NCBI RefSeq assembly: GCF_003054195.1
Contig: NZ_QBKP01000010.1
Coordinates: 80,347 to 144,346 of the forward strand
Direction: 5' to 3'
DNA: 64,000 nucleotides
DNA from: Gemmobacter caeni
Lineage (GTDB): Bacteria; Pseudomonadota; Alphaproteobacteria; Rhodobacterales; Rhodobacteraceae
The notes under the pieces are model-generated. The model saw only the letters and a program-made list of their open reading frames with translations. It searched no databases and had not been told where the DNA came from. Each line of letters begins with the position of its first letter. The stretch's first letter is position 1. Shown one piece after another: positions 50,515 to 59,849 of the stretch. The translations under genes were made by a program, and so were the position numbers.

Positions 50515-52044
50515 TTACGCCTCCGGCAGCGTCCCCTTCTGGTAAAGCTGCGCAAAACGTCTCCGCAGTTCAGCTTTCTGGACTTTGCCCATCGCGTTCC
50601 GTGGCAGTTCCGGCACAAAAAGCACACGCTTGGGCTGCTTGTAGCGGGCAAGCTGATCGCCAATCGCGCGGAGAATGCCCGCCTCGTCAATCACGCCTTC
50701 CGTTTCGCCAACCACGATGGCGGTGACGCCCTCGCCAAGATCGGGATGCGGCAGCCCGATCACCGCGCTCTCAGCCACCCCGGTAATCTCATCAATCAGC
50801 GCCTCGATCTCCCTGGGATAGACATTGTAGCCGCCCGAGATCACCAGATCCTTGTCACGCCCGACAATGCGCAGGTAGCCATCCTCGCCGATCTGCCCCA
50901 GATCGCCGGTAATAAAGAAACCATCCGCGCGAAATTCCGCCGCTGTCTTTTCCGGCATGTTCCAGTAACCGGCAAAAACATTCGGCCCCCGGACCTCAAT
51001 AGCGCCTATCTCGCCTCGTGGCAGAGGTCCGGCGGTTTCGCGATCAGTGATGCGGATTTCCACCCCGGGTAAGGCCATGCCAACCGCACCGGGCTTGCGG
51101 GAACCGTCATAAGGGTTGGATGCGATCATACAGGTTTCGGTCATCCCGTAGCGTTCAAGAATAGCGTGGCCGGTCTGTGCCTCGAAGTCACGGTGATCTT
51201 CCGGCAGCAGCGGGGCCGAACCGGAAACGAAAAGCCGCATGTTTGAGGTCGCTGCATGATCAAGACGGCCGGATTTCAGCAGCCGTGTGTAGAAGGTGGG
51301 CACACCCATCAATACTGTTGCCCGGCTCATCAGGCCGATCACCTCCTCCGTGTCAAACCGTGTCAGCCAGATCATCGCGGCACCAGCCGCAAGCGTCATG
51401 TTAACGGCTACAAACAGGCCGTGGGTGTGGAAGATCGGCAGCGCATGGATCAGGCGGTCATCAGCGGTATAGCGCCAGATCTGCGACAAGGCGGCGGTGT
51501 TGGACGCAAGATTGCCATGGGTCAACACCGCGCCCTTTGACCGGCCGGTAGTGCCAGATGTGTAAAGGATGGCGGCTGCATCCTCCATCTTCCGCGCAAC
51601 ATGGTTTGTCATAGGGTGGGCCATACGGACCTGATCCATCAGCGTGCCATCCGCCTTGGCGCCCAGACTTTCGACGCGCAGCACCGCTGACTGGCAGCCC
51701 CGGTGCTCTGACAGCGTTGCTGGGCTGCACAGGAACAGGCGCGGGGCGGCGTCTGCCAGGAAATAGTCGATCTCTGCGTCGGTATAAGCCGTGTTGAGCG
51801 GCAGATAGACCGCGCCGACCTGAAGCGTGGCAAGGTAAAGGCAGATCGCCTCAGGGCTCTTTTCGGTCTGCGCCGCGACTCGATCACCGGGTTGCACACC
51901 AAAGCCGATCAGGACGGTGGCCAGACGATGCACCAGATCGCGCGCCTGCGCATAGGTGATATCGGGCGCGCCCGGCCTTTCGAACAGCGTCTTTTGGGGG
52001 GCGCCTTCGGTCGAGGCAAGGAAGCTTTCATAGATCGTCTGCAT
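50515..52044 (-). CDS. matB: malonyl-CoA synthetase
   Basis: A 509-aa acyl-CoA synthetase of the ANL family. It has the AMP-binding motif ILYTSGTTGRSKGAVLTHGNL, YGMTETCMI, the hinge and ATP motif GYLRIVGRDKDLVISGGYNVYPREIE, and the catalytic Lys near PRNAMGKVQK. Its MatB identity rests on overall sequence pattern and on the neighbouring malonyl-CoA decarboxylase. It converts malonate, CoA and ATP to malonyl-CoA. It follows matA by 18 bp in one operon. Confidence 0.92.
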   Translation of the reverse strand: MQTIYESFLASTEGAPQKTLFERPGAPDITYAQARDLVHRLATVLIGFGVQPGDRVAAQTEKSPEAICLYLATLQVGAVYLPLNTAYTDAEIDYFLADAAPRLFLCSPATLSEHRGCQSAVLRVESLGAKADGTLMDQVRMAHPMTNHVARKMEDAAAILYTSGTTGRSKGAVLTHGNLASNTAALSQIWRYTADDRLIHALPIFHTHGLFVAVNMTLAAGAAMIWLTRFDTEEVIGLMSRATVLMGVPTFYTRLLKSGRLDHAATSNMRLFVSGSAPLLPEDHRDFEAQTGHAILERYGMTETCMIASNPYDGSRKPGAVGMALPGVEIRITDRETAGPLPRGEIGAIEVRGPNVFAGYWNMPEKTAAEFRADGFFITGDLGQIGEDGYLRIVGRDKDLVISGGYNVYPREIEALIDEITGVAESAVIGLPHPDLGEGVTAIVVGETEGVIDEAGILRAIGDQLARYKQPKRVLFVPELPRNAMGKVQKAELRRRFAQLYQKGTLPEA

Positions 52045-52062
52045 GGATGTCTCCGGCTGAAA

Positions 52063-53397
52063 TCAGCGTGTCAGGGCGGCGGCGAGGGGCGCGCCGGTGG
52101 CGATGGTGCCATCGCGTACGAAAGCCTCATGCTGGGCTTCGATGGCGGCGGGTTCGTAGAGGTAATTGACCATCAGCCCATGGCCGCGCGTCAGTGCGCC
52201 TTCGGACAGATCGGCAGGCCAGTTCACCCGCCAGGCGGCAGCTCCATTCCCCAGATGAAACCGCGCCACCGGATCGCGGGGCGCACCGGAGCGGTTGCGG
52301 GCGCCGGTGAGGTAGCGGGCCGCAAGTGCCTCGACCTCGGGTTTCAGCCGGGCTGCTTCGGCAGTATCGTTCTGCCATCCGTCGACAGCCAGCCGCTTTG
52401 CCAGGGCCGGACCGCGCGCGTCTTCGCCGCTGGCAAGCCAGGCCGCAAAATCCGGGGCAGGGGAGAGGGTCACGAACCTGCGCAGCGCGGGAAGCTCTGC
52501 GGCAAGTTCGGCCACCACCTGCTTGATCAGAAAATTACCGAAAGAGACGCCCTTCAGCCCGGCCAGCGTGTTGTTGATTGAATAGAACACCGCAGTCGTC
52601 GCTTCCTCCGCCTCAGGTGCGACGGGCGCGGTCAGGATCGGGGCGATGCGGTCGGGGGTATCGCGGGTCAGCGCCACCTCGACGAAGATCAGTGGCTCAT
52701 CCCCGGTCGCGGGATGGAAGAAGGCATAGACCCGCCGGTCGGCAGGATCGAGCCTGCGGCGCAGATCCTCCCATCCCTGCATCGGGTGGACAGATTCGTA
52801 GGCCATGATCTTTTCAAGGACGGAAGCCGGAGTGGACCAGTCGATCCGTTCCATCCGCAGGAAACCCCTGTTGAACCATGAGGCAAAAAGATGCGCGAAA
52901 TCGGCATCCAGCGGCCGCAGGGACGCATCGTTGCGCATCGCGATCAACAGGTCGGCCCGCATATCGACCAGCTTTCGTGTCGCGCCCGGCGCTGTGTTCA
53001 GACGGCGGAGCAGGGTCTGGCGTGGCGGCTCCACAGCGTCAAACAGCGGCACCAGAGTCGCGGCTGAAGGGGCCGCATCATAAGCGGCGAAGGCACGACG
53101 GATCAGGGTGGGGTCAGCGTCAAAGTGGTCACGCAGCAGATCGAAGAAGCCGCGCTTTCCTGTCGCGTCCAGTTCGGCATAGGCGGCAAGGGCCTGTTCC
53201 GCCACCGCGACGCGCGCGGCATCGCCGATGCGGCCCATCAGCACCTCGCAAGCGGCTGCCAGCCGTTCGGGAGCGGGCCGGGCCAGAGCCTTGCGCGTGG
53301 CATTTTCATCCGGTGGCGCTGATTTGCGGCCGATCCGTTCAGTGCCGGTTATGGCCTGAACCAGATCGGTCAGAAAGGCGAGTTTTGGGCGTGGCAT
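52063..53397 (-). CDS. matA: malonyl-CoA decarboxylase
   Basis: A 444-aa decarboxylase that turns malonyl-CoA into acetyl-CoA. The all-helical N-terminal part is followed by the catalytic acetyltransferase-like domain with HPMQGWEDLRRRLDPADRRVYAF, FYSINNTLAGLKGVSFGNFLIKQV and ARFHLGNGA. It is the MCD family in full. With MatB it completes malonate assimilation. A GGAGG site lies at good spacing before the ATG. It is divergent from the GntR regulator matR. Confidence 0.94.
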   Translation of the reverse strand: MPRPKLAFLTDLVQAITGTERIGRKSAPPDENATRKALARPAPERLAAACEVLMGRIGDAARVAVAEQALAAYAELDATGKRGFFDLLRDHFDADPTLIRRAFAAYDAAPSAATLVPLFDAVEPPRQTLLRRLNTAPGATRKLVDMRADLLIAMRNDASLRPLDADFAHLFASWFNRGFLRMERIDWSTPASVLEKIMAYESVHPMQGWEDLRRRLDPADRRVYAFFHPATGDEPLIFVEVALTRDTPDRIAPILTAPVAPEAEEATTAVFYSINNTLAGLKGVSFGNFLIKQVVAELAAELPALRRFVTLSPAPDFAAWLASGEDARGPALAKRLAVDGWQNDTAEAARLKPEVEALAARYLTGARNRSGAPRDPVARFHLGNGAAAWRVNWPADLSEGALTRGHGLMVNYLYEPAAIEAQHEAFVRDGTIATGAPLAAALTR

Positions 53398-53418
53398 GGC
53401 ATATCCTCCTGCGACATC

Positions 53419-53449
53419 TTATACATATTAAGCATAGTGTTGTATATAA
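53419..53449. promoter_or_regulatory. candidate MatR operator
   Basis: In the AT-rich gap between divergent matA and matR, TTATACA (53419-53425) and TTGTATATAA (53440-53449) form an inverted pair whose inner motifs lie 22 bp apart. Rhizobial MatR is reported to bind TTGTATACAA, which the right-hand copy matches except at two positions. Confidence 0.6.
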
Positions 53450-53487
53450 CATGGCGAATGTTGGACATCTTTCGAGGAAGGGTTAAA

Positions 53488-54189
53488 TTGCAACCCGTTA
53501 TCAATCTTCAGCAGGACGTCGCCTTGGATCGCCCGGCCCGAATGAACGCAGCGCAGATTCGGCAGGCGCTGGAAAATGCCATCGTGGATGGCCGATTCGT
53601 GCCGGGTGAAAAGCTGGACCCCGATGCGCTGTCGGCTGAGTTTGCCTGTTCACGCACCCCGATCCGCGATGCGTTACAGGCCCTGGAAGCGTCGGGACTT
53701 GTCCGGATCGAACCGAAGCGCGGCACATTCGTGACCGAGCTTGGCCTCGTCGAACTGACCGAACGATTCGAGGTGATGGCAGAGCTGGAGGCGATGTGCG
53801 CGCGCCTCGCTGCCAGCCGCGCGTCGGCGTCCGAAGTGGCACGCATCCGTACCGCGCAGGCGGGCTGCGAAGCGGCGATCCAGACTGGCGACACCGATGC
53901 CTACTACAGCCGGAATACGGCCTTCCATCAGGCAATCTATGCCGCCTCGGGCAATCGCTTCCTCGAAGCCGAAGCTCTGCGGCTGCAAACCATACTGCAA
54001 CCCTATCGCCGCCGGCAGCTGACGCTCCGTGGACGGATGACGCGTTCGCTGGACGAACATCGCCGCATCGTCGCGGCAATCGAGGCCGGAGAGGCGGTGC
54101 GGGCAGCGGCCGAAATGACTGCACATGTCGTCATTCAGGGCAGCCGTTTTCACGAACTCATCGCGGCGCTGCGGGCGGGCGGGGAATGA
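53488..54189 (+). CDS. matR: MatR, GntR/FadR-family malonate regulator
   Basis: A 233-aa regulator. The winged helix (QIRQALENAIVDGRFVPGEKLDPDALSAEFACSRTPIRDALQALEASGLV) is followed by an FCD ligand-binding domain with the His/Asp metal site residues in DTDAYYSRNTAFHQAIY and SLDEHRRIVAAIEAGE. The start is probably the TTG at 53488, which has GGAAGGG at good spacing. Earlier in-frame starts (53437, 53458) lie in the operator and lack ribosome sites. It probably represses matAB until malonate or malonyl-CoA is present. Confidence 0.88.
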   Translation: MQPVINLQQDVALDRPARMNAAQIRQALENAIVDGRFVPGEKLDPDALSAEFACSRTPIRDALQALEASGLVRIEPKRGTFVTELGLVELTERFEVMAELEAMCARLAASRASASEVARIRTAQAGCEAAIQTGDTDAYYSRNTAFHQAIYAASGNRFLEAEALRLQTILQPYRRRQLTLRGRMTRSLDEHRRIVAAIEAGEAVRAAAEMTAHVVIQGSRFHELIAALRAGGE

Positions 54190-54237: not shown

Positions 54238-54930
54238 TCAGGCCGCTTTCGGGACAGCGGCGCGGTTGCCCCAGTTCAGCGCAACCGCCAGCACGATGGC
54301 GAGGATACCCGCAGCGGCAGAGCTGTAGATCTCGGACAGCGGCGACAGGAAGATGGCGAGCCCCGCCGCAGCCCCGGTCAGCGCATTGCGGCGCGTGGCG
54401 CTGTTGATGAACATGATCACGACCGCGCCATAAAGGGCGGGCAACGTATAGGCCTTGATCGCCTCCGCCACCGGGGCGGGCAGGACCGCGATCAAGGCGC
54501 TGCCGATCAGCACCAGCGCAATCAGGAACACAAGGTTCACCAGAACGGAGACCACGATGCCCAGCACCGCCGCGACCTCGGCCTTGCGGGTACCCGCCTC
54601 GGCCTCGATGGCGCTTTGACAAGAGATCACCACCGGCATGCGCATGTTGCCGATGTTGCCCGACAGGAAGCTGATATAGGTGCCGCAGACCCCCAGAACC
54701 GGGAAATAGGAAACCGGCTCCACCACCCACATGATGCCGACGATGGTGGCGATGGCCAGAAGGCCCGTCAGGATCGGGCCGACGCCCGGAAAGGCGCCCA
54801 GCACGAACGACAGGTAAAGTGCGGGCATCAGGCACAGCACCATGGCAATAGCCAGCGTCAGCCGACCGATGCGATGGGCGCGCGGGATGAAGCTGCTTCT
54901 GTAGAAACCTTCCATGTTTTGTTCAGGCAT
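54238..54930 (-). CDS. unrecognised six-helix membrane protein paired with DUF5058
   Basis: A 230-aa integral membrane protein with about six hydrophobic helices. I do not recognise a named family. Noticeable conserved-looking parts are the PVLGVCGTYISFLSGNIGNMRMPVV segment (Gly/Asn-rich, in the membrane) and GAVVIMFINSATRRNAL. It starts with a GGGGAGA site 27 bp after the DUF5058 gene and upstream of no other gene in that direction. Two unlike membrane proteins made together next to a hydrolase look like a two-subunit transporter. The substrate is unknown. Confidence 0.6.
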   Translation of the reverse strand: MPEQNMEGFYRSSFIPRAHRIGRLTLAIAMVLCLMPALYLSFVLGAFPGVGPILTGLLAIATIVGIMWVVEPVSYFPVLGVCGTYISFLSGNIGNMRMPVVISCQSAIEAEAGTRKAEVAAVLGIVVSVLVNLVFLIALVLIGSALIAVLPAPVAEAIKAYTLPALYGAVVIMFINSATRRNALTGAAAGLAIFLSPLSEIYSSAAAGILAIVLAVALNWGNRAAVPKAA

Positions 54931-54957
54931 GTTTTGTCTCCCCGTATGTTATTGTGA

Positions 54958-55695
54958 TCAGGCCAGCAGATGCCCGGTGACGGAACCGGCGACGAGCCCG
55001 ACGATCAGCGAAAGGCCCACGGCCCATTCGCGCAGCCAGGCGCGGTGCTTGCCTGCCAGATGCAGCAGAACCATGCACACGGCGGCGGCGATGACGGCGG
55101 CCATGTCATCCGGCTCGATACTGAAATTGCTGAGCCAGGTCTTGTCGACCACGGCATTGACTCCCAGAAGGCCGAAGATGGCGATGGGGGTGGCGGTGCC
55201 GACCGCGCGGATCAGTCCGGGGTTGCTGACCGCCATCTTGTCCTGCGCGCGGTCCAGCCCCTTGGTCAGCAGGAAGGCGGAAAGCAGCCAGCCCATGCCG
55301 CCCAGCGTCATGACCCAGACTGAGGCCGCGAGGGCCTGAAGCGTATAGCTGTCGGCGCCCAGCTTCGCGCCAAGCGCCTTGGCGCCCTGATCGGCGGCGA
55401 GGAACTCGAACACTGCCGAGCCGATGACACCCACCCGCATCAGCGTGACCGGCCCGCCTACCATGGCCATCAGCGAAACCGCGACGAAGAAGATCGCGAT
55501 GGCGGGGCCGACCGAATTGATCGCGGCGGTCTTGTACACCACCCGCCGTTCCTCCGCCGTCAGGATGGCGTAGCGGTCCGAGAAATCCAGCGTCATGCGC
55601 AGATAGAGCAGCGACTGCACCACCACGACGCCGATCACGAGTGTTGCAAAAAGCCACAAGACCGGGCCATTTGCGACCTGAAGAACCTGTTCCAT
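54958..55695 (-). CDS. DUF5058-family membrane protein
   Basis: A 245-aa protein with about seven helices: a first helix (PVLWLFATLVIGVVVVQSLLYLR), then ...YKTAAINSVGPAIAIFFVAVSLMAMVGGPVTLMRVGVIGSAVFEFLA and further hydrophobic segments. The pattern is that of DUF5058, an uncharacterised family. It lies 28 bp after the M20D amidohydrolase gene and before its membrane partner. An import role for an N-acyl or amide compound, which the hydrolase then splits, is inferred from this order only. Confidence 0.7.
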   Translation of the reverse strand: MEQVLQVANGPVLWLFATLVIGVVVVQSLLYLRMTLDFSDRYAILTAEERRVVYKTAAINSVGPAIAIFFVAVSLMAMVGGPVTLMRVGVIGSAVFEFLAADQGAKALGAKLGADSYTLQALAASVWVMTLGGMGWLLSAFLLTKGLDRAQDKMAVSNPGLIRAVGTATPIAIFGLLGVNAVVDKTWLSNFSIEPDDMAAVIAAAVCMVLLHLAGKHRAWLREWAVGLSLIVGLVAGSVTGHLLA

Positions 55696-55723
55696 TTCGA
55701 TTTCCCTGTTGGTGATTATTCGT

Positions 55724-56887
55724 TCAGGCCAGTTCCGCCGCGATCAGGCGGCAGAAATAGCTCGCTGCCGTGGGCAGGATGTCATCGTTGAAATCGAAGC
55801 CCGGATTATGCGGCATGGCACCGGGACCGGCGCCGACCATGACGTAATTGCCGGGCACATCCTCGACCATGAAGGCGAAATCCTCGCTGCCGGTGAAGGG
55901 GGCCACATCGCCATGCACATTCTCGGTGCCGACCGTTTCGGCGGCGACGGCAAGCGCGATCGCGGTCGCATCCGGGTCGTTGACCAGCGGCACGAAGATA
56001 TCCTCGAACATGATTTCGGCGCTGCCGCCATAGGTGGCAGCCACGCTCTGTGCCACCTCGGTCAGGCGCTGGGTCATCTGGTCGCCCACCGCCTTGTTGA
56101 AATAGCGCAGGCAGCCCTTCAGCGACGCCTTGTCGGGGATCACGTTGAAGCTGTTGGTCCCGGCATAGACATCGGTGAAGGATACGATGCCGGATTCGAT
56201 GGGATCGACGTTGCGCGCGACGATGCTTTGCGCCGTCATCACGATGTTCGCGGCGATCTGCGTGGCGTCGATGGTGGTCTGGGGTAGGGCGGCATGGCCG
56301 CCGCGGCCCTGCACCCGGATGGTGAAGAAGCGACTGCCCGCCATCATCCGCCCGCTGCGGGTGAAGATGTGGTCCTTCGCATAGCCTGGCGCGTTGTGAT
56401 AGGCATAGATCCGGTCACAGGGAAACCGCTCCAGCAACCCGTCCTTCAGCATGGCCAGTGCTCCGCCCAGGCCCTCTTCTGCCGGCTGAAAGATGAAATG
56501 CACCTTGCCCGCGAAATCTCGATCGCGCGACAGATGCCAGGCGGTCGCCAGCAAGGTGGCGGTGTGGCCGTCATGGCCACAGGCATGCATCACCCCTGGC
56601 ACTTTGGAACTGTAGGGCTTGCCGGTTTCCTCGGTGATCGGCAGCGCATCCATATCGGCGCGCAGGCCGATGGTACGGTTTGAAGGCCGCGTGCCGTGCA
56701 ACACGCCCACGATACCAGTGCCGCCGATGCCGGTATGCACCTCGTCCAGCCCATATTCGCGCAGCTTGGTTGCCACCAGTTCAGCTGCGAAGGTCTCCTG
56801 AAAGCCAAGCCCCGGATTTTCGTGCATGGCCCGGCGCATGCGGGCGAATTCGTCCTGCGCCGCAACGATGCTTTCGATCATCCCCAT
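55724..56887 (-). CDS. M20D-family amidohydrolase (N-acyl amino acid/hippurate type)
   Basis: A 387-aa metallohydrolase. Metal ligands are in MHACGHDGHTA (about residues 97-107) and QPAEEGLGG (about 133-141), with further His in RGGHAALPQ and a C-terminal GSEDFAFM/PHNPGFDFND. The family cleaves N-acyl amino acids, hippurate or auxin conjugates. It is the first gene of a minus-strand operon with two membrane proteins, divergent from a MarR regulator. A GGGAG site precedes the start. No signal peptide, so it acts in the cytoplasm. Confidence 0.9.
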   Translation of the reverse strand: MGMIESIVAAQDEFARMRRAMHENPGLGFQETFAAELVATKLREYGLDEVHTGIGGTGIVGVLHGTRPSNRTIGLRADMDALPITEETGKPYSSKVPGVMHACGHDGHTATLLATAWHLSRDRDFAGKVHFIFQPAEEGLGGALAMLKDGLLERFPCDRIYAYHNAPGYAKDHIFTRSGRMMAGSRFFTIRVQGRGGHAALPQTTIDATQIAANIVMTAQSIVARNVDPIESGIVSFTDVYAGTNSFNVIPDKASLKGCLRYFNKAVGDQMTQRLTEVAQSVAATYGGSAEIMFEDIFVPLVNDPDATAIALAVAAETVGTENVHGDVAPFTGSEDFAFMVEDVPGNYVMVGAGPGAMPHNPGFDFNDDILPTAASYFCRLIAAELA

Positions 56888-56927
56888 CCTGTTTCTCCCG
56901 AATCAGTCTATATTGTTGCATTTTCAA

Positions 56928-56948
56928 ATAGTCTCATATTGATACTAT
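56928..56948. promoter_or_regulatory. candidate MarR operator (inverted repeat)
   Basis: ATAGTCTCA and TGATACTAT form a 9-bp inverted repeat with one mismatch and a 3-bp centre, in the gap between the divergent amidohydrolase and MarR genes. Length and symmetry fit MarR-family operators. Confidence 0.6.
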
Positions 56949-57006: not shown

Positions 57007-57543
57007 ATGCCGAAACGCGATGGAAAGGCCGCGATGTACAGGAACTGGTCAAAGGCGTTTCGGCAGGGAAACGCGGTCTACAAGCTGAACATGCTGGGTA
57101 CGGCTGCTGTCAGGGCGCTTGATGATCGTTTCGTCGCCCTGGTGGGGCTTGATGTGCGAACTGTGCGGGTGCTGCGGCTGATCGGCGACAACCCCGGCAT
57201 CGGCTTTGCCGAAATCGCCACCTATGGCGCGCTGGAACGCAGCCTTGCCTCGCGGCTGATCCAGAGCCTTGTGCGCGGCGGGCATGTCGAACGCCGCAAC
57301 GACCCGCAGGATGCGCGCCGCTTTGGCCTTTACATCACGGAAACCGGCGGCACGGCGCGCGCCCGCGCCGATCTTCTGTCGGAGGTCGGGCTGGAGCTGC
57401 TGTTCCAGAACTTCGATCCCGCCGAGGTTGTGGCGTTCACGGGTATGATGGACCGGCTTGCCGACTGGATCGACAGTGATGAGTTCGAACGCGGCGCTGC
57501 CATCCGGCTGGACGAAGCCGCCCGTCGCGCCGAAACGCTTTAA
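57007..57543 (+). CDS. MarR-family regulator
   Basis: A 178-aa winged-helix regulator. The core is VRTVRVLRLIGDNPGIGFAEIATYGALERSLASRLIQSLVRGGHVERRNDPQDARRFGLYITETG, containing the recognition helix and the DxR wing. The ATG at 57007 with AGGGG is preferred over a GTG at 56950, which overlaps the operator. It is divergent from the M20D/DUF5058 operon and convergent with the amidase; it probably represses the former. Ligand unknown. Confidence 0.88.
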   Translation: MPKRDGKAAMYRNWSKAFRQGNAVYKLNMLGTAAVRALDDRFVALVGLDVRTVRVLRLIGDNPGIGFAEIATYGALERSLASRLIQSLVRGGHVERRNDPQDARRFGLYITETGGTARARADLLSEVGLELLFQNFDPAEVVAFTGMMDRLADWIDSDEFERGAAIRLDEAARRAETL

Positions 57544-57557
57544 CCCCGCTGCGGCCG

Positions 57558-59051
57558 TCATTGGGTCGCCAGTGGGGGCGGGGTATGCCGCAGCACCGGG
57601 TCGATGGGGCGGAAAGGCCCGCCAACCGAAAGCTCCACAACCCGCGCTGCCGCCAGAAGCGCCGCCTCGCCGCGCGGCTTGCCGATGATCTGTAGTCCTA
57701 CCGGAAGCCCGCGCGGCCCGATCCCCACCGGCACCGAGATCGCGGGCAGGCCGGTGACGGTCGCCAGGAACGCAAAGCGCAGCCAGTCCATATATCCATG
57801 CAACTGTTGTCCGCCGACTTCGCGCACCCATTCCACCTCTTGCGGATGCGGCATGCATCCCACGACCGGACAGGCCAGCACATCGAAGGTTTCGAACAGC
57901 CGCAGCATGTTGCGGTAGATCACCGTCCGGTCCAGCTGTGCATCGGCGATTTCCGCGATGGTCAGCGTTTCGCCGAAGGCCATGTTCGCCTCCAGCGTAT
58001 CCTTGAAATGGCGGCGGATCTCCTGCGGCAGACGGCGGCCCATCACCGCCCACATCTCGCCGCGCAGGGCGTGATAGGTGCGTTCCAGATGGGGCAGGGG
58101 AGGGCAGGTTTCCTCAACTGTCACCCCTTCGCGCGCCAGCCGCTCCAGCACTTTGCGCAAGTGGGTTTCCATTTCGGCATCCACGGCTGAGAAGCCGCCC
58201 AGATCGGGGGCATAGGCGATGCGCAGTTGGGGTTCGGCTTCGGCGACGGCGGTCTGGAACGACCTGTGCGGTGCGGGGTACGAAATCGGAAAGCGCGGCT
58301 CATACCCCGCCATTGCATCCAGAAACAGCGCGCAATCGCGCACGGACCGCGCCATTGGACCCTGAACCCCTTCGATCATGTAGCCGATGGCGTCCGATCC
58401 ACCGCCGGCCCGGCCGGGACTGGGCCGCAGCCCCACGACGCCGCAATAAGCCGCCGGAGTACGCAGCGATCCTCCGTGATCCGAGCCATGGCTTAGCCAG
58501 ACCTCGCCCGTCGCCAGCGCGGCAGCCGCACCGCCGGATGAACCGCCCGCGTTCAGCCGCGTGTCCCAGGGGTTGAGGGTCGGGCCAAAGACTTCATTGA
58601 ACGTATTGCCGCCCGCTCCAAATTCGGGGGTATTGGTCTTGCCCACCACCAGACCGCCGCGCGCTTCCAGCCGTTCGACAAGCGGGTCGGAATGATCGGG
58701 TATGAAGTCTGCAAGCCCCCGTGTGCCGAAGGTGGTGCGCACCCCGGCGACCGGCGTCAGATCCTTGATGGCCAAGGGCAGGCCACCCAGCCAGCCGGAA
58801 TGCTCCGAAGGTCTGCGGTCCAGCCTGTGCACGGCGGCGCGGGCGCGTTCTTCGCACAGGATGGGCATTGCATTGATCGCCGGTTCCACTTTCTGCAATC
58901 GCGCGCAGGCCGCGTCCAGCAGTTCTTCAGGCGAGATTTCACCTTTGCGCAGCAGGGCCACGACCTCGGTCGCTTCCAGCCTGCACAGGTCCGGCCCGGT
59001 AAATGCGGGCAGGTCATCGTCGATCTTGCTGATCCTTGCGGTGGCGGACAT
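57558..59051 (-). CDS. amidase (amidase-signature family)
   Basis: A 497-aa amidase with the Ser-cisSer-Lys triad: Lys in LPLAIKDLTPV (about residue 95), cis-Ser in GGSSGGAAAALATGE (about 170) and the nucleophile in GSDHGGSLRTPAAYCGVVGLRPSPG (about 195). The length is standard. It could hydrolyse a carboxamide, arylamide or amide ester. It lies between MarR and GntR genes, divergent from the latter across an AT-rich region. A link to the M20D operon by shared catabolism is plausible but not shown. Confidence 0.9.
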   Translation of the reverse strand: MSATARISKIDDDLPAFTGPDLCRLEATEVVALLRKGEISPEELLDAACARLQKVEPAINAMPILCEERARAAVHRLDRRPSEHSGWLGGLPLAIKDLTPVAGVRTTFGTRGLADFIPDHSDPLVERLEARGGLVVGKTNTPEFGAGGNTFNEVFGPTLNPWDTRLNAGGSSGGAAAALATGEVWLSHGSDHGGSLRTPAAYCGVVGLRPSPGRAGGGSDAIGYMIEGVQGPMARSVRDCALFLDAMAGYEPRFPISYPAPHRSFQTAVAEAEPQLRIAYAPDLGGFSAVDAEMETHLRKVLERLAREGVTVEETCPPLPHLERTYHALRGEMWAVMGRRLPQEIRRHFKDTLEANMAFGETLTIAEIADAQLDRTVIYRNMLRLFETFDVLACPVVGCMPHPQEVEWVREVGGQQLHGYMDWLRFAFLATVTGLPAISVPVGIGPRGLPVGLQIIGKPRGEAALLAAARVVELSVGGPFRPIDPVLRHTPPPLATQ

Positions 59052-59104
59052 GACCTCCCTTTCATACCAGTTGCAATGGTTGGGAGCGTCGGGTGAAAAA
59101 GCAG

Positions 59105-59155
59105 GTCTGTCAATAATAACTATAATTTTATAATCTTTAATTATAATTATATGGT
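59105..59155. promoter_or_regulatory. AT-rich island with palindrome before the GntR gene
   Basis: About 45 bp of nearly pure A/T interrupt otherwise GC-rich DNA. It contains the perfect 12-bp palindrome TAATTATAATTA (59138-59149) and related ATAATT repeats. It lies between divergent amidase and GntR genes, so it is a likely operator/promoter for both. Confidence 0.6.
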
Positions 59156-59210
59156 GGAAATTTGTGTGCTATTTCCTGATCGACCATGCCGGATCAAGGA
59201 GTTAGGGAAT

Positions 59211-59849
59211 ATGGGCGCGCAGGCGGATCAGGTTCGCGATGACATCCTGCAACGGGTGCAGGCGCGTGCCCTGCTGCCCGGTGACCGCATTGACGAGGTG
59301 GATCTGCGCGAAAGGCTGATGATTTCCGGCACGCCGATTCGCGAGGCGCTGATCGCGCTCGAAGCTGTGGGTGTGATTGAACGCCGCCCACGCGACGGTG
59401 CGCGCATTGCTGCGCTGGATGCCGAAGCGCTGATGAAGATGATCGAGGTTCTGGCCGAGGCCGAGGGCGCGCTGGCCTATCGCGCGGCGCGGCGCATCGG
59501 CCCGATACAGGCCGAACAACTGTCGGAGGCCGCGCGCGCCTGTCTCGCGGCCAGTGGTCCGCAGCCAGCCTATTATGACCTGAACCTTGCCTTTCACCGC
59601 TGTATCATGGCGGCGGCGGGTAATGAGCACCTGAGGGCGATGGCGTTAGGCGCCGGGAACCGGCTGATCGGCTATCTGGCAGCCCGCCACGCGCTGCCGG
59701 GCGAGCAGATACGCTCGGCCCGCGATCACGAGGCGATCACCGCCGCGATTCTGGATGCGGCGGGGGACCGCGCGCGCGATCTGATGATCGCCCACGTCAC
59801 ATTCTCCGACACGATGGCGCTGGACATCATCAACGCCCTGAGGCGCTGA
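59211..59849 (+). CDS. GntR/FadR-family regulator
   Basis: A 212-aa regulator. The winged helix (QVRDDILQRVQARALLPGDRIDEVDLRERLMISGTPIREALIALEAVGVIERRPRDGARI) is followed by an FCD domain with the ligand/metal residues in DLNLAFHRCIMAA and ARDHEAITAAILDAAG. The start at 59211 has an upstream GGAG. An earlier start (59151) lies beside the AT-rich operator. It probably controls the divergent amidase. Effector unknown. Confidence 0.86.
   Translation: MGAQADQVRDDILQRVQARALLPGDRIDEVDLRERLMISGTPIREALIALEAVGVIERRPRDGARIAALDAEALMKMIEVLAEAEGALAYRAARRIGPIQAEQLSEAARACLAASGPQPAYYDLNLAFHRCIMAAAGNEHLRAMALGAGNRLIGYLAARHALPGEQIRSARDHEAITAAILDAAGDRARDLMIAHVTFSDTMALDIINALRR

Follow-up and report, generated by a model that had tools for sequence, protein, structure and literature searches.

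AbgT, a single large carrier, and AbgAB together accomplish the uptake of p-aminobenzoyl-glutamate and its M20D hydrolysis, and AzlC/AzlD is a two-subunit exporter of branched-chain amino acids. In the small membrane-protein pair YjiH-YjiG, the neighbouring gene is iadA in Escherichia coli, an amidohydrolase gene in Serratia and an M20 peptidase gene in Salinivibrio, and the Vibrio copy has no adjacent hydrolase; among the matches listed, as excerpts, by our literature search, no functional paper on YjiH/YjiG stood out. In Clostridioides difficile, according to the sections of PMC11477304 consulted, the genes for YfcC, a putative amino-acid antiporter, and for an M20D amidohydrolase apparently share one operon, which is controlled by a lysine riboswitch. 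Here, we analysed a stretch of 64,000 nucleotides from Gemmobacter caeni (the window, at its full length), in which a DUF5058 membrane protein and a second membrane protein, its partner, are encoded together after an M20D amidohydrolase. The pair is most likely an undescribed, widespread but patchy two-protein membrane system that imports amide-linked amino acids.

The G. caeni locus shares with AbgT/AbgAB a putative transporter beside an M20D-type hydrolase for an amide-linked amino acid, but AbgT is a single carrier, and no AbgT family was found for the window proteins or in the family lists obtained with 63 members per protein. With AzlC/AzlD it would share two-subunit amino-acid transport. 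One stretch of the window DUF5058 protein resembles AzlD below the cut-off (16.2 bits vs 23.7, E = 0.011), AzlD appeared as a weak match in only three of the 63 DUF5058 members, and AzlC was not among the families listed for the partner; we did not assign the pair to AzlC/AzlD. The likeness to YjiH-YjiG-IadA lies in the architecture: in four of the five YjiH-YjiG loci viewed, a small membrane-protein pair is followed by a peptidase or an amidohydrolase, and the family of this enzyme varies. However, there is no detectable sequence relation, and YjiG has 153 residues compared to ~ 230-245 for both proteins here. The C. difficile operon likewise places an amino-acid carrier gene and an M20D gene under an amino-acid riboswitch, but in the sections of PMC11477304 consulted it has one YfcC-family carrier and a lysine riboswitch, whereas the present system has two proteins of other families and, in some genomes, glycine riboswitches, a contrast drawn by family and riboswitch. 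A search of open-access full texts, a scope outside which preprints and most subscription papers fall, returned no paper on DUF5058/PF16481, and the partner family is nameless. The features of the window discussed here are as follows.

54238-54930, minus strand: partner membrane protein, the proposed subunit 2, 230 residues, without a Pfam or NCBIfam match
54958-55695, minus strand: DUF5058 membrane protein, the proposed subunit 1, 245 residues; PF16481, 216.2 bits
55724-56887, minus strand: M20D amidohydrolase (amide- or peptide-bond hydrolase, cytoplasmic by sequence), 387 residues; PF01546, PF07687, TIGR01891
56927-56949, strandless: palindrome AATAGT-N11-ACTATT, probable MarR operator, from sequence and a similar block in an alphaproteobacterial alignment (by eye)
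57034-57543, plus strand: divergent MarR-family regulator; PF12802, PF01047; start at 57034 proposed from homologue lengths
57558-59051, minus strand: amidase-signature amidase, a neighbour that is possibly functionally linked; PF01425, 329 bits

The three genes of the trio follow each other in the order M20D, DUF5058, partner, with intergenic gaps of 28 and 27 nucleotides. Open reading frames, Pfam and NCBIfam bore out the coordinates and arrangement given for them in an earlier, sequence-only reading of the window. The hydrolase belongs to the subfamily of TIGR01891 (316 bits vs a cut-off of 153.75) and matches PF01546 at 142.5 bits. It reaches no NCBIfam equivalog, the CpsA and DoeB2 models included, and its substrate is therefore unreadable from the models; judged by eye, an N-terminal hydrophobic stretch is not visible. 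The DUF5058 protein belongs to PF16481, with a score far over the cut-off of 28.2 and the whole profile covered (1-222 of 222), and the NCBIfam scan gave no match for it. For the partner, the Pfam and NCBIfam scans gave no match at E ≤ 0.1.

The partner adjoins DUF5058 in 77 of 80 loci, as found with a partner profile across three bacterial phyla and the haloarchaea. These 80 loci comprise the window, 69 loci from a contig scan with a DUF5058 alignment and ten plasmid loci; 12 plasmid records had been retrieved, of which H3 and the near-identical L015 were left out. By record title, the 69 loci are 12 Alphaproteobacteria, 17 Bacilli, 15 Halobacteria, 22 Actinomycetota and three metagenome-assembled genomes (MAGs) labelled Clostridia, Bacillota and Acidobacteria. 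The three loci without an adjacent partner lie at a contig end (L060) or have a broken or partial DUF5058 (L071 and L082). Among the 77 partners, those of L006, L012, L014, L059 and L072 are split or partial reading frames as deposited, and that of L045 is cut by a contig end. Because the first loci had been found through conserved DUF5058 peptides, we drew a second set by searching 398 genomes from one phylum with PF16481. Thirty lay over the cut-off, and the partner adjoins DUF5058 in all 30; the set shares one genome (L068) with the 80 loci, and L103-L105, L116, L118 and L119, which did not come from this draw, are counted outside it. In a third set, one Bacillota family, 28 of 159 genomes exceeded the cut-off (three of them also among the 80), and all 28 hold both genes within one stretch of ~ 3.7 kb. 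Some tallies contain duplicates: L068 and L115 are one place, L030 and L053 one genome, and L043 and L200 one place.

Searches that started from the partner agree with these counts. Tblastn with the partner and with DUF5058 returned the identical 12 plasmid records, the partner was present in 22 of 22 DUF5058 genomes searched with its profile, and among the extra partner copies examined DUF5058 was also found at L103 and L104, with L105 stopping at a contig edge. Moreover, in the 103 loci where both proteins are single stretches of more than 150 residues, the pairwise distances of the two proteins correlate with r = 0.947 (5253 pairs), a value uncorrected for species relatedness and to which shared ancestry contributes. 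The two membrane proteins are thus co-conserved in all three sets, the point on which the sequence-only reading had said its proposal could fail. We rejected a chance neighbourhood, since the arrangement is found again in distant phyla, where the hydrolase and the gene order vary. No homology between DUF5058 and the partner was detectable (profile comparison 0.3%). The trio occurs twice in Paracoccus denitrificans DSM 413 (L019 and L027), each time with an M20D gene upstream. In one genome (G706), DUF5058 (L112:8990-9688) is split by an in-frame TGA, be it a mutation, an error or recoding, while the partner and the hydrolases are open.

In 70 of the 80 loci and in 27 of the 30 from the phylum draw, the same strand encodes an amide or peptide hydrolase no more than 350 nucleotides from the pair. 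M20-type enzymes alone account for 68 and 21 loci, respectively, and an M20-type hydrolase occupies the same stretch in 27 of the 28 Bacillota-family genomes. Neighbouring genes were named from Pfam and NCBIfam scans of chosen representatives and from their phmmer relatives, not gene by gene. The hydrolase is not always M20D. Beside the pair we found M20D, long M20 (~ 480-500 residues), carbamoylase-type M20 (TIGR01879), M42 and Amidohydro_3 enzymes, an Xaa-Pro-dipeptidase-like amidohydrolase (238 bits, under that model's cut-off), and PGA_cap and AAT/C45 proteins. AAT/C45 is claimed for L145 only; for L050, L061, L083 and L085 we did not use the label, given weak phmmer scores of 69-87 bits. 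PGA_cap (PF09587) proteins occupy the hydrolase position right after the pair at L159:10148-11524 and L162:2840-4180, a hint that part of this family may use peptides or amides as substrates.

On a FastTree tree of the 103 concatenated pairs, with one hydrolase type per locus and nine loci carrying no hydrolase label, the type changes at least ten times, or 15 times if second hydrolases count as states. The division between M20-type and other enzymes changes at least five times, and the side of the hydrolase relative to the pair at least nine times. That the membrane pair stays the same while the hydrolase is exchanged makes best sense if the molecule opened by the hydrolase is the one handled by the pair. 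We consider it probable that the pair is a two-subunit secondary importer, ion- or proton-coupled, of amide-linked amino-acid derivatives, namely N-acyl amino acids or short peptides, which the adjacent hydrolase opens. The sequence-only reading had proposed a two-subunit amide importer, and the proposal is supported in that the pair as a rule has an amide or peptide hydrolase next to it, as such an importer would predict. We infer transport, its direction, the coupling ion, association of the subunits, the substrate and repression from genomic context.

In the proposed mechanism, DUF5058 and the partner would import an N-acyl amino acid or a short peptide as two subunits, the cytoplasmic hydrolase beside them (M20D in the window) would open the amide, and the released amino acid would be catabolised. 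In haloarchaea, some Bacillota and perhaps some Actinomycetota, this amino acid would most likely be glycine, passing through glycine cleavage, serine hydroxymethyltransferase (SHMT) and serine/threonine dehydratase, or, in one Bacillota MAG, through glycine reductase. In the window, the MarR protein would probably repress the operon at the palindrome until the substrate or product appears. The divergent MarR regulator with an operator, described in the earlier reading, was recovered, as the PF12802 gene is divergent and the palindrome lies in the intergenic space between it and the hydrolase gene. The palindrome block is identical in Gemmobacter lutimaris (L017). It is recognisable in most of 14 aligned alphaproteobacterial intergenic regions, a judgement by eye, uncounted and without a chance test, and is absent from L027. 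The MarR reading frame is open from GTG 56950, and its homologues in Paracoccus have ~ 170 residues; the homologue lengths and the operator position suggest ATG 57034 as the true start.

Both proteins are predicted to be almost wholly helical membrane proteins. The AlphaFold model of DUF5058 is fair (predicted local distance difference test, pLDDT, 82.7; predicted template modelling score, pTM, 0.69) and that of the partner is weak (pLDDT 72.5, pTM 0.50), with ~ 7 helices in each. The earlier reading had described the second protein as a six-helix membrane protein, whereas the models do not give exactly six. Among 68 homologues of DUF5058, the invariant residues are W14, Q27, R87, W136, T144, W220 and E223, of which Q27, R87, T144 and E223 are polar. 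In the partner (69 homologues), these are E71, P72, Y85, F88, G91, N92, P99 and Q105, with E71, N92 and Q105 being polar. The conserved polar or charged residues of both proteins lie in or near the predicted helices.

The profile of each protein found no PDB sequence at E ≤ 10, and Foldseek against the PDB gave no meaningful fold match, with best E values of 1.5 for DUF5058 and 2.3 for the weak partner model. A Pfam scan of 63 members of each protein yielded no convincing transporter family among the families listed at E ≤ 1 (25 of 26 for the partner, 25 of 37 for DUF5058). The statement that neither membrane protein fits a known transporter family therefore holds against the listed Pfam families, PDB sequences and PDB folds, and no known fold with another function, which the sequence-only reading had named as evidence against itself, emerged from the models, that of the partner being weak. 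The commonest weak match of the partner was Kei1, a subunit of inositolphosphorylceramide synthase, in seven of 63 members (best E 6e-4) and not in the window protein; we took this and the other weak Pfam matches of homologues as noise. For DUF5058, the commonest other weak matches among the families listed were DUF485 and VSP, in four of 63 members each. The top Foldseek match of the low-confidence partner model, a chain of the Man-PTS (mannose phosphotransferase system), was insignificant (E 2.3, template modelling score 0.25). The comparison of the partner with ManY gave an hhalign probability of 0.2%, with ManZ outside the comparison, and no PTS family was among the 25 of 26 families listed for partner members.

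Other explanations of the pair have to be weighed against import of the amide. The pair could be a permease that carries the released free amino acid (glycine in some lineages), acting as an exporter that eases glycine excess or as an amide/glycine exchanger, with the amide entering otherwise. Movement of glycine may matter in the 12 of 80 loci where a protein of the TRIC family lies near the pair, this family being one with annotations as glycine transporter. In the sections of PMC11477304 consulted, glycine riboswitches are described both as OFF switches upstream of alanine/glycine symporters and as ON switches upstream of catabolic genes. However, what stays constant beside the pair is an amide hydrolase, whose type varies, and this fits an amide substrate better. 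Glycine genes are missing from most loci, and the gene runs of L040, L041 and L043, of which not every reading frame was scanned, yielded no further transporter gene. We regard such a permease as unlikely.

It would be less probable still that the partner is a highly diverged Gate/nucleoside-recognition fold and the system a distant cousin of the E. coli YjiH-YjiG pair encoded beside isoaspartyl dipeptidase. The gene order yjiH-yjiG-hydrolase described above (with iadA, the Serratia amidohydrolase or the Salinivibrio M20 peptidase) speaks for such kinship, as does a look-alike P-x-LG-x-x-G stretch, on which the partner profile locally matches YjiH best. Nevertheless, the profile-profile (hhalign) probability did not exceed 2.6% in any of eight comparisons, and no Gate family was among the 25 of 26 weak Pfam families listed for the 63 partner members, so we did not place the pair in the Gate or YjiH-YjiG families. 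If the pair were not a transporter but served to anchor or regulate the hydrolase, as a membrane platform or sensor, this would suit a window that encodes neither a coupling ATPase nor a binding protein directly with the pair. Yet hydrolases of unrelated families are swapped beside the same pair, making a specific docking partner unlikely, and the prediction for both proteins is of a nearly all-helical structure whose conserved polar residues lie in or near the helices; a platform of this kind seems highly improbable to us.

Returning to the two-subunit amide importer, catabolism genes and riboswitches near the pair point to glycine as the released product in some lineages. A glycine-cleavage, SHMT (glyA) or glycine-reductase gene is present in 17 of the 80 fetched stretches: 11 haloarchaeal, three from Bacilli (L040, L041, L043), two from Kocuria (L078, and L066 with nothing but an SHMT relative) and one from a Bacillota MAG (L068/L115), where GrdB and Gly_reductase lie near the pair. 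On haloarchaeal plasmids, the trio is found near varying sets of gcvT, gcvH, gcvPA, gcvPB, lpdA, lipA and glyA; a Halalkalicoccus plasmid has the trio without those glycine-cleavage-type neighbours. The order on one strand in L040, L041 and L043 is DUF5058, partner, M20D, glyA, gcvT, gcvH, gcvPA, gcvPB, except that L041 has two more reading frames between glyA and gcvT and no clear gcvPB before the stretch ends. Rfam placed glycine riboswitches between the hydrolase gene and glyA in all three.

Directly upstream of DUF5058 and on the same strand, glycine riboswitches were found in L043 (RF03166, 113.5 bits) and L039 (113.8 bits), against a gathering score of 110. In the 28 Bacillota-family loci, taken with ~ 1.5 kb on each side, a riboswitch lies upstream on the same strand in L180 and L200 (the L043 genome) and divergently in L189. 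Three genomes thus have a riboswitch directly upstream of DUF5058 (L043, L039 and L180/L205), and three more have one in the adjoining gene run. In L180/L205, DUF5058 is also preceded by a second stretch that resembles an aptamer by eye and by a strong hairpin with a T-run. In L206 (the L189 genome), the trio diverges from a tandem glycine riboswitch followed by sdaAB, sdaAA, gcvT, gcvH, gcvPA and gcvPB, with the two sda names read by eye from N-termini, and the tandem is the sole glycine riboswitch site found in that genome. Ten genomes searched, five of them picked for a riboswitch near the pair, hold 35 aptamers in ~ 40 Mb; by that density, roughly 0.1 aptamer would be expected across the 28 family stretches.

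We must also note the results that weigh against an importer of amides, and of glycine conjugates in particular. Ten of the 80 loci and three of the 30 have no close same-strand hydrolase, and the adjacency of the rare hydrolase types is partly circular, as they became queries after being seen beside the pair. In the window, L020 and L021, the pair has malonate genes at its side, possibly a sign of a different substrate. Only two of the 17 named Bacilli loci scanned carry a riboswitch directly upstream of DUF5058, and five of the ten genomes searched have glycine riboswitches elsewhere. The Rfam scans, which took in loci other than the haloarchaeal ones, revealed no glycine riboswitch in 17 of the 30 phylum-draw loci or in six of the 22 Actinomycetota loci, these being the loci scanned. 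Glycine genes lie near the pair in just one of the 30 phylum-draw loci, and none lies near the window's own pair. As the glycine link is missing from most loci and from the window, the substrate either differs between lineages or is a broader amide class.

Glycine conjugates are nonetheless a likely substrate in some lineages. More tentatively, and somewhat short of an even chance, we suggest an obligate two-protein secondary transporter of unsolved fold, found in Bacteria and haloarchaea. It would import glycine conjugates along with other amides of amino acids, would be under the control of glycine riboswitches in some Bacillota, and would be paired with exchangeable hydrolases of at least seven types, which fall into five Pfam-level families. 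If the importer is real, it would be a new transporter family with two mandatory, apparently unrelated subunits in at least three bacterial phyla and the haloarchaea. It would give a function to a Pfam DUF and to its partner family, for which neither Pfam nor NCBIfam has a matching model, and explain feeding on conjugated amino acids in some bacteria and archaea. The glycine riboswitch and the glycine-cleavage neighbourhood make one substrate class directly testable.

Among the relatives of G. caeni, the pair is sporadic. DUF5058 exceeded the cut-off in one of 289 genomes of the window's class and in one of 398 of its phylum, in both cases its own genome; one further genome matched weakly, below the cut-off, in both searches. 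A partner search of 41 genomes (its own and relatives) gave three matches, namely its own genome, a congener at 90% identity and another with a weak match of 63 residues. The sporadic spread and the plasmid copies suggest horizontal transfer of the pair.

The TRIC-family, channel-like proteins near the pair belong to L007, L010, L011, L016, L044-L046, L048, L049, L051, L065 and L081, mostly haloarchaea, with weak matches in two Arthrobacter. On one side of the window's trio, positions 50515-54189 hold a malonate module with a malonyl-CoA ligase-like AMP-binding protein, a malonyl-CoA decarboxylase and a divergent GntR/FCD regulator. We rejected malonyl amides as a general substrate, since malonyl-CoA decarboxylase is near the pair in only three of the 80 loci (window, L020 and L021), and they would be local at best. 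On the other side, at positions 57558-59849, lie the amidase-signature amidase and a divergent GntR/FCD regulator of its own. Relatives of the amidase (E ≤ 1e-10) occur in 17 of the 80 loci, including the window, in several just after the M20 gene. In Paracoccus marinaquae (L021), the labelled genes keep the same order across the whole island.

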